Source of the DNA: Sedimentisphaerales bacterium
GTDB lineage: Bacteria; Planctomycetota; Phycisphaerae; Sedimentisphaerales; SM23-30
Reading direction: 5' to 3'
DNA: 33,012 nt
Assembly (NCBI GenBank): GCA_016934515.1
Contig: JAFGSR010000149.1
Location: 1-33,012 of the forward strand
The position numbers were made by a program, and so were the translations under genes. Positions 7,401 through 17,536 of the stretch are shown here, one piece after another. Numbering within the stretch: position 1 is the first letter of the stretch; every line of letters begins with the position of its first letter. Under the pieces are notes generated by a model, which was given only the letters and a program-made list of their open reading frames with translations, ran no database searches and had not been told where the DNA came from.

Positions 7401-10400
7401 TTATCCGCCTATGCTGGACATGGAAGAAACTAAAGCGCTAAGGTTACCCAAAGCCGACTGCTGGGACTGCATGTTGGCAAGGGCCTCTTCCATAGCGTAG
7501 AATTGTTTGTATAGCCGTTCTTCCTTGTTAGCGAGGATTACGTCGAGGTATTCGATACGTTCTTCGAACATTTTTTGCTGGCTTTGCATACTGTCAACGC
7601 GGCGTTTCATGGTACTTTCGGTGTTGTCGGCCAGACTGTTGAGTTTGTCAGCAATGTAATCGCCGATACCGGTATCAGCTTTGGTAAAAAGTTCGGTAAC
7701 GGCGTCGGGATCATCTTCGAAAGCCTCGCGGAATTTGGTTTCGTCAAAAGCCAGTTTTGGAGTGGTGGCAACGGCATAATTTGAGGTTGAACCACTGGCG
7801 TCGGTGCCGGATTCGTAACTTAGCGGTGCAAAGGAAATGCCGATACTGGAGAGCATATTGTAAGGCTGTTGCAAACCGGATACGACGCGGGAGGGTAGAG
7901 TCTGGAGGATGGATTTGGCAGTGTAAACAGTGTGTTCGCTGAAGAGTAAGCCTCGTTGGAGGGTGGTGGGATTAAAGCTGGCATTGGCGTCGATATCATC
8001 CATGATGGCGTTGTAAGCTTCGACAAAGGAATTCATCTGTTCGACGATAGAGTCGAGATCCTGGGAAATGGTGACGTCCACAGGCGAATCGCTGGTGGAT
8101 TTCAGTTCGAGGGTGGTACCGTGGATGATGTTTTTCATGGTGTTGGAACTACTGGAGACGAGGAAAGCAGATTGTTCTTCGCCGCCACCCATGAGAACAA
8201 TGGCATCTTGTGCTTCGGAAAGGGTTTGTGTGTTGAGGGAGGTTTGGCCGGGATCGATGTAGATTGAGCCGGCGCGTCCAGACACTTCGCTGTTGAAGCT
8301 GATACGGTAAGGGCTGTTGGCGCTGCCGTCGTTGATAATGGAAGCCTTAATGCCGATGTCAGCGTCATTTAATCTGGATACGACGTCGTCGATAGTGTCA
8401 CCGCCGCCGACTTCAAGTTTGAATTCGAGAGAACCATCGGCCTGATAAAAACCATCGTCATTCTTTTTGACAGAAACAAGCAGGCCCAGATCGTAAGCGG
8501 CATAACCGCCATCGGCATCGGTGATTTTCAGGGGAGTTGGGTCGAGGATCGGCATTCCCTCGCTATCTTCGGCCTGATCGATAATGACCAGGCCGTCACC
8601 ATCATCGTTGATTCTGGCAATGACGGTTTCGGGAGTAACGAGATTAATTTTATCGATGACATCGCCGAGAGTTACGGCGTTGCTGATATCGACGGTGTAT
8701 TTCTGACCGGTGGCGTCGGTAATGTAAAATTCACCAAGTCTAACCCCCCCACCGTTACGATAATCATCGAGCAGGGTGGCTTCGGAGATGTATTGCAGTT
8801 GCAGATTGCCGCTGTCAACTGAGGAGACGGCATCATCAACGGTGAGATTCAATTGTTGAGCCAGAGTGCTGCCGGCGGCGTCAGCGATGATAAGGTTGCC
8901 GGAGCCGGTGGAACTGTCGGTGATTTTGATACCGTTGCCGACCTTATTGGCCGAAGCGGTGAGGTTGGTATTTTCGTCGGCATTAATAGCGTTGATGACG
9001 TCCTGAACGGTAAAGGCGTTGGTAAGATCGATGGTGGAATTGTTACCATCGCGGTCAGTGATGGTGATTTGTCCACCCTGGGTAATCTGATTTGAGCCGG
9101 CGTTGCCGCCGTTCAGGGATCGAAGCATAACGGTGTTGAGTCCGGCGATGAGTCGGCGGCCCTGCACGAGGGTTTGTCCATCGGAATCGATGAGACCCAG
9201 GTCAACGGCGGAATCGGTTTGACTGAGGAATAGGGTGCCGGAGCCATTGTAGCTGAGTACGACATTATCACCGGTCTGATCAATACTGAGTTGGACGAGT
9301 CTTTTGTCGTCACCGGTGATCGAAGAGTCCCAATTGTCCCAATGATTATTAACGGCATTGACCAGGTCGCCAAGAGTTTCCATTTTCCAGATGACTTCGC
9401 CGTGGATGTTTTCGCCGGCGATATCGTCTGCAATGCCCAGGTCGGAAGCGGCGTGGCCGCCGTCGAGGTCTTCGATGATGAAATGACTTTTGCGTTCTGC
9501 TTCGGAATCACTGCTGAAGGGTTCACTGTTATCAGTTACGGTGATATGGTCAGCGCTGCCAAAAGTAAAACCGATGTCCATGCCTTTGAAATTTGGATCG
9601 CCGGAGGGATTCAATTCAGCATTCTTTTCGGTAACTTTTTCCTGAATGAATTCCTCAACATGAGTGAGGGTAAGGGGCTTGTCCTGCATTTCGGGTTTTT
9701 GCGCTAATTCGTTGAGGTCGATGTCAACAAAGCGGCCATTTTGATCGGTGATGCGGAATTTTCCGAGTCGAATGCCTTGTCCACCGTTAAGTGATTGAAG
9801 GGTGGTGCTGTTTTCAGCACTGAATTCGCCGATTTCCTTGTACATTTTATCACGGATATCAACGGACATAAAATCATCGATACCATTGGAGAAGATGAGA
9901 TCGGCACCATAACCCAGTCCGCGGATGCCGAGGCCGTCATTGAGCTGGTCAAGTTTGGTTTCAGCAGTTAAGTAGTGAATGTCGGAGCCGATGATTTTAG
10001 TTTCTGCACCGGAGGTAGTCCCGGCGATGCCCAGGCTTTGAGCGGGTTGGCCGGTGATGGATAGAGTTCCCGTGGCAGCGGTGTTGTTGTCGGTTATAAC
10101 GATGCTGTCGCCATCGACCGAAGCAGTGACATTAACGGTGGTATCGGCATTAATTGCATCAAGGACATCGGTGACGGTCAAAACGGCGGAAAGATCGATT
10201 TCAGAAGAATTTCCGGCGCGATCGTTGATGGTGATGGTGCCGCGTTGGAAACCCTGCTGGCCATTGATGAAACTGAGATCAGTAGATTTTGTAACCTGGC
10301 CGTTGCCTATTTCGAAGGAAACGGTTCCAGTACCAAAGTTGCTGTTTAAGCTGGAATATCCTCCCGTGACGAGGTGATGGTTAGTAGCAAGTTGTTTGAC

Positions 10401-10700
10401 GCGGAAAGTGTAGGAACCCAGGGTAGCGTTCTTGTCGGCGGTAAGGGAGAGAACGTCTTCATTGGAAACATTTACGGCATTTTGCTGAAAAACCGATTCT
10501 TTGTTGAAATTTGCGGCGGACAATTGCAGGGCCATGATTTTGGCCTGAAGGGTCATGAAAGCGGTTTGCTGAGCAGTGATGGCTTCGATGCGTTGGGTAA
10601 GCAGGTCTCTTGGTCGCTGCTCAATCGCCATGAGTTGAGTAACAATGGACTCAATATCAATGCCAGACATAATACCAACGCCTGAAGTAATAGTACCCAT
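7401..10700 (-). CDS. fliD: Flagellar filament cap protein FliD (hook-associated protein 2), very large
   Basis: FliD forms the cap at the filament tip that folds incoming flagellin. The FliD N domain spans residues 5-105 (GIMSGIDIESIVTQLMAIE..) and the FliD C domain about 857-1085, ending in a long coiled coil. Between them lie about six flagellin-hook IN-type modules (near 148-225, 300-425, 437-503, 528-620, 645-740 and 755-810). Each has the pattern ITDRxGN..IDL..TVxDVIxxINAD..V.A..DGDGI.ITD, often followed by AAxDLGL. At 1099 aa it is more than twice the E. coli protein (468 aa). I start it at ATG 10700: AAAGGAG lies 8 bases upstream, whereas the open frame's upstream TTG would place that ribosome site inside the gene. 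A sigma-28-like promoter lies upstream. Confidence 0.95.
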   Translation of the reverse strand: MGTITSGVGIMSGIDIESIVTQLMAIEQRPRDLLTQRIEAITAQQTAFMTLQAKIMALQLSAANFNKESVFQQNAVNVSNEDVLSLTADKNATLGSYTFRVKQLATNHHLVTGGYSSLNSNFGTGTVSFEIGNGQVTKSTDLSFINGQQGFQRGTITINDRAGNSSEIDLSAVLTVTDVLDAINADTTVNVTASVDGDSIVITDNNTAATGTLSITGQPAQSLGIAGTTSGAETKIIGSDIHYLTAETKLDQLNDGLGIRGLGYGADLIFSNGIDDFMSVDIRDKMYKEIGEFSAENSTTLQSLNGGQGIRLGKFRITDQNGRFVDIDLNELAQKPEMQDKPLTLTHVEEFIQEKVTEKNAELNPSGDPNFKGMDIGFTFGSADHITVTDNSEPFSSDSEAERKSHFIIEDLDGGHAASDLGIADDIAGENIHGEVIWKMETLGDLVNAVNNHWDNWDSSITGDDKRLVQLSIDQTGDNVVLSYNGSGTLFLSQTDSAVDLGLIDSDGQTLVQGRRLIAGLNTVMLRSLNGGNAGSNQITQGGQITITDRDGNNSTIDLTNAFTVQDVINAINADENTNLTASANKVGNGIKITDSSTGSGNLIIADAAGSTLAQQLNLTVDDAVSSVDSGNLQLQYISEATLLDDYRNGGGVRLGEFYITDATGQKYTVDISNAVTLGDVIDKINLVTPETVIARINDDGDGLVIIDQAEDSEGMPILDPTPLKITDADGGYAAYDLGLLVSVKKNDDGFYQADGSLEFKLEVGGGDTIDDVVSRLNDADIGIKASIINDGSANSPYRISFNSEVSGRAGSIYIDPGQTSLNTQTLSEAQDAIVLMGGGEEQSAFLVSSSSNTMKNIIHGTTLELKSTSDSPVDVTISQDLDSIVEQMNSFVEAYNAIMDDIDANASFNPTTLQRGLLFSEHTVYTAKSILQTLPSRVVSGLQQPYNMLSSIGISFAPLSYESGTDASGSTSNYAVATTPKLAFDETKFREAFEDDPDAVTELFTKADTGIGDYIADKLNSLADNTESTMKRRVDSMQSQQKMFEERIEYLDVILANKEERLYKQFYAMEEALANMQSQQSALGNLSALVSSMSSIGG

Positions 10701-10768
10701 AAGCTGCTCCTTTAGGGCCAAATAAACAAAGTATCCCTGTTAGACCTGTAAACAAGGTCCTAATAAGT

Positions 10769-11277: not shown

Positions 11278-12711
11278 TTAACCGAGCAGCGCCAGGACGC
11301 TCTGCGGCATGGAGTTGGCCAACGATAAAACTGAGGTGTTGGCCTGAACCAGGATCTGTGATCTAGTAAGCGCGGCAGTTTCGGCGGCGAAGTCGGCGTC
11401 TCTGATTGCCGATTCGGAAGCGGTTACGTTTTCGAGAGTAACACGCAGACTGTTGACATTGGTGTCAAGAATGTTCTTCTGGAACGCACCGAGCCGGCCA
11501 CGTAAAGTTGTGATATCTTTGATGGCGGCATCAACGACTCTCTGAGCGGTATAGAGATTGTCCCCACTCATAGCGTTTGCGCCGCCACTTTTTAGTGTGT
11601 TTAGGGTACCGTTACTGTCACCGAGCTGACTGGGAGCGACGCTCTGGATACCGATGGAATCGAGACCAATGGCATCTACCTTGGAGCCGATGGCAAAATC
11701 AGCCCCACCGCCGGTAACATAGAAGGTATTTGTGGCGGTAGAGAGTCCGGCAGCAGTAGTCAGATCGATTTCAGCGTCAAGCATCGCGGTACGAATAGTA
11801 AGTTTTTTACCATCACCAACCGCGGCAGAACCATTAATAGTAGCACTGTAATCACGGCCGATATTTTTGACTGTGGTGGTGCCGGTGCCGTAGGTTTTCA
11901 TAACCTGGGTGCCACCGGTTTGTGTGCCGGCAAGCACTTCGACACTGGTGTAGGCATTGGTGCCGAAATCTCTACTACGCAGCAGGGTCACGGCCCCGGA
12001 AGTACATGCAGAAACACCAGTTATTTCGACAACGGCATTAATAGCAGTTCTGACATCAGCAATGGCAGTCCCGGCGGCAAAAGTCAATTCCGTGGTACCG
12101 CGATTGGAGCCGACCTGGAGGGTTAGCTGCGCGGTTGAAACAGCACCACTGAGATAGACGATGCCGGTTTCAGCGGAATCAACGGTTTGGACATCGATGG
12201 TCATAACAGCACCATCGATCAGTTTTGCAGAGTTTACCTTGAGATCGTCAATAATAGATGTGTCGGTGGAACTGGTGACATAGGCTTTGTTTCCGTTAAG
12301 AAGTTTAAAGCCTTCGAACTCGGTGGCATTAGCGATGCGGTTGATGCTATTAATAGCAGAATCAACCTGTAACTGATTGGCGTCAACTTCTTCGGTTGAC
12401 AATGCCCCGGAGTTCGCCGAGGTAACCAGCAGCGACTTGATGTCAATTAACAGGGCTGAGATTTCATTCAAGGCGCCTTCTGCTGTCGCGATCACGCTGG
12501 AAGCCCGGATAGAGTTGTCAATAGCGGAATTGATACCTGCTATTTCCGAGCGAAGATTTTCCGAGGCTATTAATCCGGCGGGATCGTCTTTGCCTGTATT
12601 AATGCGTAACCCGGAAGAGAGACGCTGCAGGCGAGTAGTTAGATCGCTGTTGTTTGCAACCAGCTTACTGATTGCATTCATCGATGCTATGTTCGTGTTG
12701 ATACGTGACAT
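11278..12711 (-). CDS. fliC: Flagellin 1
   Basis: This 477-aa flagellin builds the filament. The N-terminal D0/D1 region (about 1-170) has the signature MSRINTN..LQRLSSGLRIN..DDPAGLIASENLR, and the C-terminal one (about 390-477) ends SAIRDADFAAETAALTRSQILVQANTSVLSLANSMPQSVLALLG. The central domain (about 170-345) contains an IN-type motif (LTLQVGSNRGTTELTFAAGT, then ADVRTAINAV). This central part is about 86 % identical to flagellin 2 by my count, while the N-terminal part is only about 62 % identical. The ribosome site CACGGAGGAT before the ATG also fits a CsrA site. The gene is probably transcribed alone, since terminators bound it on both sides. The symbol fliC is generic; hag would be the alternative. 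Confidence 0.96.
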   Translation of the reverse strand: MSRINTNIASMNAISKLVANNSDLTTRLQRLSSGLRINTGKDDPAGLIASENLRSEIAGINSAIDNSIRASSVIATAEGALNEISALLIDIKSLLVTSANSGALSTEEVDANQLQVDSAINSINRIANATEFEGFKLLNGNKAYVTSSTDTSIIDDLKVNSAKLIDGAVMTIDVQTVDSAETGIVYLSGAVSTAQLTLQVGSNRGTTELTFAAGTAIADVRTAINAVVEITGVSACTSGAVTLLRSRDFGTNAYTSVEVLAGTQTGGTQVMKTYGTGTTTVKNIGRDYSATINGSAAVGDGKKLTIRTAMLDAEIDLTTAAGLSTATNTFYVTGGGADFAIGSKVDAIGLDSIGIQSVAPSQLGDSNGTLNTLKSGGANAMSGDNLYTAQRVVDAAIKDITTLRGRLGAFQKNILDTNVNSLRVTLENVTASESAIRDADFAAETAALTRSQILVQANTSVLSLANSMPQSVLALLG

Positions 12712-13681
12712 GGCTTATCCTCCGTGACAAGACAGACATAAAATCAACTATGCGAAAAATCGGATAATATTGACTTTATGAGTCCTGTACAGTCCTGGCG
12801 ACCCCAAACAATTATTTTACATTTGGCTATTTGTTTGGGTTACACAAGCAGTATGTTCCAGCGCGAAATCACATGATTTCGCCGTCCTATGCCGGAAACA
12901 AACCGGTCTGTAAAGGTGAATTCCTTCTTTAGCCACAAGATGAAGGAATAAACAAAACACTTCTAAATAATACGGGTTTGGTTAGTACCGTGCTCAGGCA
13001 TGCGTGGTGGGTTCCACCTCACGGCAGCAGGCCGACTGTGTATGTCGGATGATCTGTCATTGGGGACAGAATCAAATCAGAAATGAGTAGCAACTCCGTT
13101 GCAAACTCCGTTTCACTTCCGACCAGATCAGGCTTAATCCAACTGAGTTCTGATCGGTGCTCATCCATGAGTCTTTTTAAGACTCGCTAAGGCGAAAAGC
13201 TTTAACAACCCGGAATTGTTTTTGGCCTTTGTTATCGCCCGTTGCTTTGAGAATTTCGACAGGTATAGCAAAAAACTTTAGTAAGGGCGATAATATTTCG
13301 AAATTTTGTCTTATAGGACGTAAAAGTCGGGCAATAGCGGTTGACGACCGACATAGAGAACCCGGGCAAAAATTTGTTTTTTTGGACGAAAAACAAGGAC
13401 GGCAGGTCCGATAATGTTATGCCGTCAGCAAAAAATTCCATGATGGATAAAATAAGAAAAAATCCGGCTTAAATGAGGTGGTAAGTAAAAACTGAGCAGA
13501 AGAACTGCCGGAACCGGTCAATTATTCTGGTAACTTTCAGAGATGTTTATGTACAGTTAAGTGGCGGGATTGGGATGCAATCGACAGGTAATAATCAAAA
13601 ATTAATTAGGCTGGTAAAGTTCAACCTGGGCTTATTGTCCAGGAAAGCAACGGACAACAAACCAGCAAAAGCGACAAGCGT
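12712..13681 (-). promoter_or_regulatory. Long structured upstream region or leader of flagellin 1
   Basis: About 970 bases separate the flagellin 2 terminator from the flagellin 1 start, with no supportable gene. The part nearest flagellin 1 is packed with perfect inverted repeats. They are CCCAAACAA/TTGTTTGGG (12803-12839), GCGAAATC/GATTTCGC with a 4-base loop (12863-12882), ATTCCTTC/GAAGGAAT (12920-12949), CCGAC/GTCGG (13032-13048), CTGTC/GACAG (13054-13069) and GAGTCTT/AAGACTC (13169-13185). If transcription begins at the candidate promoter near 13253 these would all lie in a leader of about 530 bases. From 13300 to 13681 I see only AT-rich sequence. Confidence 0.45.
13253..13280 (-). promoter_or_regulatory. 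Candidate sigma-28 promoter for flagellin 1
   Basis: On the - strand the -35 box TAAAGTTT matches the FliA consensus exactly. The -10 box GTCGAAAT matches only 5 of 8, at the same 16-base TAAA-to-box spacing as the fliD promoter. A second possible -10, GGCGATAA (7 of 8), lies downstream with a poor -35 box. The implied leader of about 530 bases is unusually long, so confidence is low. Confidence 0.3.
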
Positions 13682-13749
13682 AAAAAAAAAGTGGCCGGGC
13701 CCTACCGAGCATGCCGGAGAAGGCAAGCTCGGTAGGTAACCCGTGCCAC
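13682..13749 (-). terminator. Rho-independent terminator of flagellin 2
   Basis: On the - strand, GTGGC..CCTACCGAGC pairs with GCTCGGTAGG..GGCCAC and is followed by nine T. It begins about 44 bases after the flagellin 2 stop. The inner 10-bp stem is perfect. Confidence 0.9.
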
Positions 13750-13792
13750 ATGAATGTGCACGTCATAACCACCCAGCAAAGGTCAAAACGCA

Positions 13793-15229
13793 TTAGCCAA
13801 GCAACTGGAGGACATTTTGCGGGGCAAAATTGGCCTGAGACAGTACGCTGGTGGCAGCATTGACCAGAATCTGCGACCGTGTCATGTTGGATATCTCTGC
13901 CGCGTAATCGGTGTCACGGATGGCAGATTCGGCGGCATAGAGGTTTTCCTTGGTGATTTCCAGAGTGGAAATGTTGGTTTCAAGGGTGTTTTTCTGGAAG
14001 GACCCCAAACGACCGCGAAGAGTGGATACGTCCTTAACAGCACTGTCGACGATATTCTGAGCCGTGTAAAGATTGGTGGAACCGAGAGAGTTAGTACCAC
14101 CACTTTTCAGGGTGTTAAGATAGCCATCGGTAGAATTACCCAGATTGGTAATCGCAATATTCTGAATGCCGACAGATTCAAGACCCTGTCCTGTAACCTC
14201 CGCACCGAGAGCAAAATCAGCACCACCACCGGTAACATAGAAAGTTTCGGTGGCAGTGGACAATCCGGCAGCGGCGGTCAGATCGATCTCGGCATCAAGC
14301 ATAGCAGTGCGAATAGTCATTTTCTTGCCATCACCGGTAGCTGAAGTACCATTGATGGAAGCACTGTAATCCCGGCCGATATTCTTGGCACTGGTAGTTC
14401 CGGTAGCATAAGTTTTCATAATCTGAGTACCACCGGTCTGAGTTCCGGCGAGCACTTCGACGCTGGTATAGGCATCGGTACCGAAATCCCTACTACGCAG
14501 CAGGGTTACTGCACCGGAAGTACATGCGGAGACACCGGTTACTTCAGCAACAGCATTAATAGCCGTTCTGATATCTGCAGCAGTTGTTCCGGCCGCAAAA
14601 GTCAGTTCGGTATTACCGCGGTTTGAACCTACCTGGATGGTCAATGCGGTGGTTGAGACCGCACCACTGAGATAGACGATTCCAGTTTCTGCGGAATCGA
14701 CCGTGGTAACAGCAATCGTCATGGTGGCACCATCGATCAGTTTGGCGGCATTGACTTTGACATCGGCAATAATAGTTGAATCAACACCACTGGTGGTATA
14801 ATCCAGGTTACCGTTCAATAGTTTGATGCCTTCAAATTCGGTGGTGTTGGAGATGCGGGCGATGCTGTTGAGAATGGAATCGACCTGCAACTGATTAGCT
14901 TCGATTTCCTCGGTGCTCATCCCACCCTTGTTGGCGGCTTCGTCAAGTAAGGCCTGAAGATCGAGCAACATTGAGCTGACCTCGTTAAGAGCACCTTCAG
15001 CGGTACTGACGATGTTAATGGCACGCTCGGAATTTTTGATGGCGGTTTCGGTACCGCGAATCTGTTTTCTGAGGTTTTCCGAAGCGATCAGACCGGCAGG
15101 GTCATCGGCACCGCGATTGATCCGCAAGCCGGTGCTTAATCTTTCCAAAGAGGAGTTAAGATCCTTAGTGTTGCGATTTAATACTCGCGCACTTGTGAGT
15201 GCAGTTACGTTAGTGTTTATTCTGCTCAT
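13793..15229 (-). CDS. fliC: Flagellin 2
   Basis: This 478-aa flagellin has the same architecture as flagellin 1: a D0/D1 N-terminus (MSRINTNVTAL..LERLSTGLRINRGADDPAGLIASENLR), a central IN-containing domain and a C-terminal helix ending NAATSVLSQANFAPQNVLQLLG. I start it at ATG 15229 because GGAGGT lies nine bases upstream and the flagellin consensus begins there; the open frame continues 15 codons upstream. The central domain is nearly the same as in flagellin 1 although many third codon positions differ, which points to selection on the protein rather than a very recent copy. Its ribosome site (TTGGAGGTTA) differs from the shared CACGGAGGAT of flagellins 1 and 3, so its translation may be controlled differently. 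Confidence 0.96.
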   Translation of the reverse strand: MSRINTNVTALTSARVLNRNTKDLNSSLERLSTGLRINRGADDPAGLIASENLRKQIRGTETAIKNSERAINIVSTAEGALNEVSSMLLDLQALLDEAANKGGMSTEEIEANQLQVDSILNSIARISNTTEFEGIKLLNGNLDYTTSGVDSTIIADVKVNAAKLIDGATMTIAVTTVDSAETGIVYLSGAVSTTALTIQVGSNRGNTELTFAAGTTAADIRTAINAVAEVTGVSACTSGAVTLLRSRDFGTDAYTSVEVLAGTQTGGTQIMKTYATGTTSAKNIGRDYSASINGTSATGDGKKMTIRTAMLDAEIDLTAAAGLSTATETFYVTGGGADFALGAEVTGQGLESVGIQNIAITNLGNSTDGYLNTLKSGGTNSLGSTNLYTAQNIVDSAVKDVSTLRGRLGSFQKNTLETNISTLEITKENLYAAESAIRDTDYAAEISNMTRSQILVNAATSVLSQANFAPQNVLQLLG

Positions 15230-15584: not shown

Positions 15585-15613
15585 TCATCGACGCGGGATT
15601 ATAGGCTACTTTA
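15585..15613 (-). promoter_or_regulatory. Candidate promoter for flagellin 2
   Basis: On the - strand, TAAAGTAG is followed after 17 bases (counted from TAAA) by GTCGATGA, which matches the FliA -10 consensus at 6 of 8 positions. A TATAAT hexamer (15598-15603) lies between the two boxes, so a sigma-70 promoter is an equal possibility. The leader would be about 350 bases. Confidence 0.27.
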
Positions 15614-15775
15614 GCATATAAAATGAGCAGGTACTTATGGGACTGACAAAAAGCTAATATCTTGAATATCTGCAAAAAACAGCGTTTTAGGTCGTTAATA
15701 AAAAATGATTTATATTTAGACAGGTCCTATAAGAAAGGCTAAATGGGTTTGTCGGACAGGTAATTATGAGCGCAT

Positions 15776-16011: not shown

Positions 16012-17454
16012 CTATTGCAACAGCGCCAGTACTGATTGCGGGGTCTGGTTGGCAAGAGCCAGCACAGAGGTTCCGGCATTTACCAGAATCTGGCTACGAG
16101 TCAGATTGGCCGTTTCGACGGCAAAATCAGCGTCGCGGATGGCGGATTCAGAGGAAGTAACGTTTTCCAGGGTGATTCTAAGGGAGTTCATGTTAGTGTC
16201 CAGGGTGTTTTTCTCGAAAGCACCGAGTCGTCCGCGAAGAACGGATATCTGACTGATAGCTTCTTCGATGATGTCGCTGGCACTGGAAGATTCACCGGCA
16301 ACGAGTGAAGATGCACCGCCAGTACTGATTTCGTTAAGGAAGCCGGTTGAGGTGGAACCAAGCCGGCTGGCGGCAACCGAAGTGATGCCCAAGCTGGTCT
16401 GCTCAGAGGTATTGATATGGGGGCCGAGTTGGAACATGGCTCCGCCGCCGGTAACATTAAAAGTGGTGGAATTGCCGGCACCGAACTGGGCAGCAAGTTT
16501 CAATCGCAGATCAAGGCTGCCGGTGTTTAGGGTGATTTCATGGCCGCTGCCGACGGTAGTGGCACCATTGATAGTGGCAACGACATCGCGACCGGTATCA
16601 CGCTGCATAGCAGTGGCACCAGTAGAATCGTAAGCGGTAAAAGTACCGGAGCTACTTGGTAAAGCACGAACAGAAACATAGGCATCAGAGCCGTAGTCTA
16701 AACTGCGAAAGATCACACCGGAATCATGGTTACCTGCGTTTATGAAGGTTGCGGAAACCCCAATAGCGTTGGTGACAGCATTAATTGCGGAAACCATGTT
16801 CTCAGAACGGAATCCGGAAACAAAACTGAAAACTTCTACGCCGCGATTAGAGGCAACTTCCAGGGTAATCGAGTTATCCACCTGGCTGGTTTGGAATTGC
16901 AGATGTCCGCGTTGTGCGGAAAGCACGCCGGAAACGTTAACCGCCAGATAACTCTGGTCCGCAAGCATGGCGCTATAGACGTCAAGAGCGACAACAGCCG
17001 AAGTAGCAACTCCGCTGGTAATGTAATCGAGATTACCGTTAAGCAGATGGAGTCCGGCAAAGGTTGTGGCGTTGGCGATACGGGTGATACTGTCGATAGC
17101 GGAATCGACCTGAAGCTGATTGGCTTCGATTTCTTCACGACTGATAGCACCGGAGTTAGCCGCTTCGACGGTGAGTTCCTTGATGTTGATGAGCAGGTTG
17201 GCAACTTCGGCAAGGGCACCTTCGGCAGTAGCGATAACGTTTGAAGCACGTTGTGAGTTATCAATTGCCTGCGAAATGCTGGCCATTTCGGCGCGGAGCG
17301 TCTCCGAAGCAATCAATCCGGCGGGGTCATCGGCGCCTCGGTTAATGCGCAGGCCGCTGCTGAGTCTTTGCAAGGTACTGTTCATGTCGCGAGTGGACCT
17401 TGCGAGGTTTGCTTGAGCTGTAAGAGCCGGTATGTTTGTGTTAATCCTAGCCAT
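16012..17454 (-). CDS. fliC: Flagellin 3
   Basis: This 480-aa flagellin is the first of the three in the direction of transcription. The D0/D1 ends are typical (MARINTNIPALTAQ..LQRLSSGLRINRGADDPAGLIASETLR and SAIRDADFAVETANLTRSQILVNAGTSVLALANQTPQSVLALLQ). The central domain keeps the IN outline (ITLEVASNRGVEVFSFVSG, MVSAINAVTNAIGVSA, then RSLDYGSDAYVSV) but is much more diverged than that shared by flagellins 1 and 2. The leader has CACGGAGGAT as ribosome site, preceded by a perfect 7-bp hairpin, and lies 214 bases after csrA. I found no convincing sigma-28 site in that gap, so it may be read through from fliW-csrA. Confidence 0.96.
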   Translation of the reverse strand: MARINTNIPALTAQANLARSTRDMNSTLQRLSSGLRINRGADDPAGLIASETLRAEMASISQAIDNSQRASNVIATAEGALAEVANLLINIKELTVEAANSGAISREEIEANQLQVDSAIDSITRIANATTFAGLHLLNGNLDYITSGVATSAVVALDVYSAMLADQSYLAVNVSGVLSAQRGHLQFQTSQVDNSITLEVASNRGVEVFSFVSGFRSENMVSAINAVTNAIGVSATFINAGNHDSGVIFRSLDYGSDAYVSVRALPSSSGTFTAYDSTGATAMQRDTGRDVVATINGATTVGSGHEITLNTGSLDLRLKLAAQFGAGNSTTFNVTGGGAMFQLGPHINTSEQTSLGITSVAASRLGSTSTGFLNEISTGGASSLVAGESSSASDIIEEAISQISVLRGRLGAFEKNTLDTNMNSLRITLENVTSSESAIRDADFAVETANLTRSQILVNAGTSVLALANQTPQSVLALLQ

Positions 17455-17462
17455 CGTTAATC

Positions 17463-17536
17463 CTCCGTGACTAGCTGTTGAAAATAACAGCTGGCTTCAT
17501 GCCTAAAATGGGATATCCCGCGGGTCCTTCCTGCGG
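17463..17536 (-). promoter_or_regulatory. Flagellin 3 leader with hairpins and GGA motifs, candidate CsrA target
   Basis: Just upstream of the ribosome site CACGGAGGAT there is a perfect hairpin, AGCTGTT/AACAGCT with a 6-base loop (17473-17492). Further up, a small stem CCGC/GCGG (17518-17536) presents AGGAAGGA in its loop on the - strand. CsrA binds GGA in loops and at ribosome sites. In Bacillus subtilis the hag leader carries two such sites; the comparison is inference. Confidence 0.4.

Follow-up and report, generated by a model that had tools for sequence, protein, structure and literature searches.

Two neighbouring planctomycete flagellin genes, here called F1 and F2, very probably owe the close match of their outer domains to recurrent, domain-limited gene conversion, a form of concerted evolution. 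Comparisons across the host's family show that the gene centres share a history within the genome, that the two ends have separate histories, and that the sharing recurs. The first-pass annotation of this DNA had offered two readings, an earlier copying of the central domain between the genes or an unusual constraint on the exposed domain; region-specific trees, AU tests and silent sites support the former and extend it across the family.

The window, a stretch of 33,012 nucleotides, belongs to the MAG of an uncultured Sedimentisphaerales-type planctomycete, and a scan of named genomes places its nearest relatives among uncultured Sedimentisphaerales/Phycisphaerae MAGs. The features used below are as follows.

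11278-12711, minus strand: flagellin F1, 477 aa, core type 1 (Pfam Flagellin_N 4-142, Flagellin_C 392-476)
13793-15229, minus strand: flagellin F2, 478 aa, core type 2 (Pfam Flagellin_N 4-141, Flagellin_C 393-477)
16012-17454, minus strand: flagellin F3, 480 aa, third paralogue, with no part in the exchange (36-37% central identity to F1/F2; a single clade in each of the three regional trees)
11692-12276, minus strand: putative shared tract in F1, the predicted outer domain, residues ~146-340 (maximum-scoring paralogue-over-orthologue segment, permutation p<=0.001)
14210-14794, minus strand: putative shared tract in F2, the predicted beta-rich outer domain, residues ~146-340, between the D0/D1 helices (same segment scan and AlphaFold)
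12712-13240, minus strand: conserved F1 leader with ACGGA/AGGAC motifs (ten-genome alignment and RNAalifold), given as context and outside the exchange

The three flagellin genes sit between fliD/fliS and csrA-fliW-flgL-flgK, as identified by Pfam within the window. All exceed the Pfam cut-offs for Flagellin_N and Flagellin_C, with one domain at each end, and by both domain and fold they are bacterial flagellins of the FliC/Hag type. F2 begins with an ATG at 15229, with GGAGG just upstream. The nearby FliD (7401-10721, minus strand) is very large, at 1106 aa, its FliD_N lying far from FliD_C; it also has a Flagellin_IN motif and, centrally, a large insertion. Adjoining the flagellar cluster, three successive proteins with C-terminal PEP-CTERM motifs are encoded at 153-2659 on the plus strand, two of them 222 aa each. 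An additional, more distant solo flagellin lies on a separate contig of the same genome.

All genomes compared are draft MAGs. The F1-F2-F3 trio occurs in 10 of 12 further genomes of the host's family, with the order F3-F2-F1 retained wherever contigs allow; F1 has orthologues in 10 other genomes, and F2 orthologues are present within the family. In the remaining two, G007 has F3 plus only a contig-end stub of F2, and G005 has a solo flagellin only, a more distant one. Eleven genomes thus carry both F1 and F2, namely the window's genome (G000) and 10 relatives, including its congener G001 and G011 from the nearest other genus. F1 and F2 lie at contig ends in G006 and G012, and one of the genes is truncated by a contig end in G009 and G004.

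Inverted identity between F1 and F2

F1 and F2 share 336 of 478 residues overall, distributed as 105/170 at the N terminus, 148/172 in the centre and 83/136 in the remainder (N terminus versus centre, Fisher p 3e-7). The N-terminal and central counts reproduce exactly those first reported for this pair, and a MAFFT alignment keeps the disparity, with 57% identity over residues 1-100, 67% over 101-160, 82-88% over 161-350, 59% over 351-380 and 63% over 381-478. F3 displays the ordinary flagellin pattern against F1 and F2 (centre 36-37%, N-terminal about 60-64%), so that the reversal noticed earlier is real and specific to the F1-F2 comparison.

Silent sites vary along the pair in the same sense. 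Fourfold-degenerate positions mismatch at 52/99 (0.53) in the centre versus 48/65 (0.74) in the termini (p = 0.0086), and a silent tract spans codons 185-337 (p = 0.009). Third positions do differ often in the shared centre, as had been remarked, and the longest run of identical DNA is only 20 bp, which indicates, in agreement with the earlier reading, that the copying seen in the window is not recent. The two centres are ~15-25% different at the DNA level. Assembly collapse is rejected for the window, G001, G002, G008, G010 and G011, in which both genes lie on one contig; the DNA difference between the window's centres also speaks against it there.

The segment over which the window's paralogues resemble each other more than they resemble orthologues runs from residue 146 to 340. 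Across lineages its left end falls at 102-163 and its right end mostly at 329-352; diagnostic residues near the left end are few and give mixed signals on the direction of transfer. The AlphaFold model of F2, of moderate confidence (mean pLDDT 69, pTM 0.48), has helices at 7-34, 44-100, 106-129 and 386-477 and strands within 154-340, and a Foldseek search with it matches solved flagellar filaments (best 8sug, E 6e-17). F2 is thus predicted to comprise a helical D0/D1 core with an inserted outer domain. Since the segment overlaps the modelled strands, the exchanged tract corresponds, within the precision of the method, to the predicted outer domain.

Separate histories of core and outer domain

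We built trees of the F1, F2 and F3 sequences for three parts, residues 1-140, 165-345 and 381-478. The N- and C-terminal trees arrange the sequences by gene, with F2 and F3 each forming a single clade at 100/100 and F1 as one clade not rejected (AU p 0.44 for the N terminus). F1, F2 and F3 are therefore orthologous across genera, and the duplication that gave rise to F1 and F2 predates the split of the species compared. The divergence of the D0/D1 ends noted at the outset is real and old, the three genes being separate at both termini in all genera; the ends may, as suggested there, make different protofilament contacts. Separate recent duplications in each genome are rejected, the termini being orthologous.

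The central tree keeps F3 as one clade and sorts F1 and F2 by genome. Each genome's F1 and F2 pair as sisters with 98-100% bootstrap in G002, G004, G006, G008, G009, G011 and G012, and the two congeners G000 and G001 form a four-gene clade. Enforcing an all-F1 or an all-F2 central clade is rejected (AU p 3.7e-33 and 5e-54, respectively) at a cost of >820 lnL; conversely, pairing F1 with F2 by their N termini is rejected in G006 (AU p 2e-4) and G002 (AU p 1.5e-6). The number of independent groupings in the central tree, by genome or by genus, suggests independent conversion in at least eight lineages. The same identity pattern is indeed seen in orthologous pairs, an outcome that the first-pass annotation, in combination with uniform synonymous divergence, took to rule out conversion; with centres that group by genome instead of by gene, it is what recurrent conversion predicts.

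Identities tell the same story. Within genomes the F1-F2 centres are on average 78% identical (77-89% in 9 of 11 genomes), compared with a mean of 54% between genera, and in the same proportion of genomes each resembles the other more than it resembles orthologues from other genera; inside the window's own genus, central orthologues are slightly closer than paralogues. The termini show no such effect, with F1-F2 identity within genomes (~61% N-terminal, ~67% C-terminal) equal to that between genera. Central lengths of F1 and F2 co-vary by genus (248/248, 256/256, 256/256, 246/246 and 257/257) and do not track F3, whose centre is mostly near 246. In G003 and G010 both genes are present with centres just 50-52% alike, which shows that the pair need not be homogenised and that divergence is tolerated. 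F3 takes no part in the exchange. F3 outer domains are also more conserved between genera (mean 65%) than those of F1 and F2 (54-56%) and, unlike them, nearly constant in length, which suggests that F3 may hold a different position or role in the filament.

Pooled over the nine matching pairs, 382/853 (0.45) of central and 349/543 (0.64) of terminal fourfold sites mismatch within genomes. Between-genera orthologues mismatch at 0.65-0.66 in the centre and 0.62-0.64 in the termini, and this central silent divergence, as high as that of the ends, argues against any special codon constraint. The centre has the lower silent mismatch in eight of the nine genomes, G004 being the exception, and individually significantly so in G000, G002, G008, G011 and G012. 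Silent tracts, each with p = 0.0005, cover codons 130-294 in G002 (93% matched), 125-335 in G011 and 111-291 in G012. With synonymous sites near saturation, the test falls short of significance in G001 (p 0.08), G004 (p 0.68), G006 (p 0.16) and G009 (p 0.35), and for these four it is the amino-acid tree that supports conversion. G003 and G010 show no reduction in central silent divergence, as expected of unconverted pairs.

The ages of conversion appear to differ, from recent in G002, G011 and G012 through old in G000, G006 and G008 to very old in G004. Identical DNA runs reach 86 bp in G002, 47 bp in G011 and 41 bp in G012, and G002 mismatches at only 10 of 102 fourfold sites in the centre; G004 combines 77% central identity with a nearly saturated silent mismatch of 0.71. 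For the window, the F1-F2 central pS of 0.55 lies below the values against G011 (0.74-0.76) and above those against the congener G001 (0.35-0.49), which would place its last major copying later than the split from G011 and, for the most part, earlier than that from G001. As a gauge of conversion after the two congeners split, the centre in the G000/G001 quartet holds 7 third-position changes shared by paralogues and 5 of the null pattern. As a separate observation, the F1 centre (11692-12276) compared with L036 of G001 has 48/106 fourfold changes and the F1 ends 19/126, and the excess in the centre is much smaller for F2 and F3 of the congeners. One F1 centre may possibly have been replaced after the two congeners split.

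Proposed recurrent conversion, its rivals and known systems

We propose that the tandem paralogues F1 and F2 are ancient, having parted before the family split into its genera, and that the cores of the two (D0/D1, residues 1-~145 and ~341-478) have each followed their own orthologous line from then on. The outer domain (~146-340) would have been copied repeatedly between the two genes by homologous recombination inside the genome, probably involving adjacent direct repeats separated by about 1 kb. Between copying events it would diverge fast among genera, leaving the pair alike inside most genomes and unlike across genera. Conversion may be confined to the centre both through selection against chimeric cores and because core DNA, at ~45-65% identity, has diverged too far to recombine.

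A repeated horizontal import, in which an outside outer-domain cassette entered both genes separately in lineage after lineage, is very unlikely. It would suit the strong differences between genera, and the excess silent change in the window's F1 centre could reflect such an outside replacement; yet it demands two near-identical cassettes per genome many times over, and the F1 and F2 centres are mutually closer than either is to any other sampled genus. A single import followed by intragenomic conversion is possible and compatible with the recurrent copying proposed here. We give still less credence to convergence or co-evolution, in which selection from a shared lattice or shared glycosylation pulls the outer domains together without DNA exchange. 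The nearly saturated silent sites of G004 would fit it, but an old conversion accounts for them, and the eight other matching genomes, with their reduced central silent mismatch and identical DNA runs of up to 86 bp, contradict it. Least credible is unusual purifying constraint on the exposed domain, for example by a binding partner, with diverging ends and no exchange: the low central dN/dS of the pair (0.096/0.99) points to purifying selection since copying, but the centre is the fastest-changing part of F1 between genera (mean 54% F1-F1 identity versus 81-83% in the termini; silent mismatch 0.65 versus 0.62-0.64), differs in length by genus and clusters by genome, and protein-level constraint cannot bring about the pair's lower silent divergence there.

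Why conversion would persist is less certain. We consider the chances about even that matching outer domains are favoured since F1 and F2 both coat the same filament; passively, recombination may simply persist where homology remains. Selection for matching coats is plausible given that flagellin outer domains can form dimers between subunits (PMC8931119), that outer-domain chimeras engineered between species mostly do not support motility (PMC12445082) and that paralogous flagellins can take different segments of one filament (PMC6299084). A more speculative and rather doubtful extension treats the outer domain as an exchangeable module, with conversion spreading a new surface to the second gene and so keeping two core-specialised subunits of one filament matched. 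Were that true, the surface could change fast under phage, protist or surface pressure, and the composition of the filament core could vary under one uniform coat. Recurrent conversion would separate two demands within one protein, a core kept different and a surface kept the same, and this leads to a testable claim, that F1 and F2 lie in one filament with outer domains that interact or are seen as one surface. Full-length flagellin gene trees would blend these two conflicting histories.

Campylobacter flaA and flaB are alike across most of their length. F1 and F2, by contrast, have cores only ~60% identical and distinct across genera, with apparent exchange in the outer domain only, and whole-gene homogenisation of the flaA/flaB kind was not found in termini that are ~61% (N) and ~67% (C) identical within genomes. 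The likeness is that adjacent flagellin paralogues swap sequence within a genome by recombination, as outlined for the concerted evolution of flaA/flaB in PMC5126078 (citing Meinersmann and Hiett 2000; Harrington 1997; Wassenaar 1995). Alteromonadales fla genes likewise undergo long-lasting, recurrent concerted evolution, revealed by within-genome clustering (Wang and Chen 2018, PMC6053082), although apparently at gene level; F1 and F2 do so in one domain only, and in Planctomycetota. Roughly half of all flagellated species have more than one flagellin gene, for reasons that are largely not understood (PMC6299084). Shewanella putrefaciens also has two adjacent flagellin genes, whose functionally distinct, spatially arranged products have demonstrated roles in one multi-flagellin filament (PMC6299084); F1 and F2 are known here from genes, and they are most alike in the variable region, where FlaA and FlaB mostly differ. 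Concerted evolution of flagellin paralogues is therefore known from Campylobacter and Alteromonadales, and within the open literature we found none described that is confined to the outer domain and leaves the cores distinct throughout a family.

Leaders and candidate promoters of the flagellin genes

The F1 leader comprises several hundred bases, patchily conserved in ten genomes, and includes AACGGAGTTGC. The ten-genome alignment conserves a GGTGGAACCCACC hairpin, and RNAalifold on the same genomes finds an AGGACG-containing helix with compensatory changes in 10/11 pairs. At the start site, the hairpin CUUGUC-ACGGAG-GAUAAG (12714-12731, minus strand) places the SD and ACGGA in its loop. Rfam returned no credible match in the flagellin region, this leader included. 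With csrA and fliW nearby, the F1 leader looks like a CsrA-controlled flagellin leader. A GTCACGGAGGAT start-site motif is common to F1 and F3 (~17455-17475, minus strand), and F2 is without it.

A scan for sigma-28 and sigma-54 promoters gave no convincing consensus match. F2 has a conserved TAAAGT...CGATG element ~375 bases upstream (~15590-15620, minus strand), which is perhaps a candidate sigma-28-like promoter of unusual spacing.
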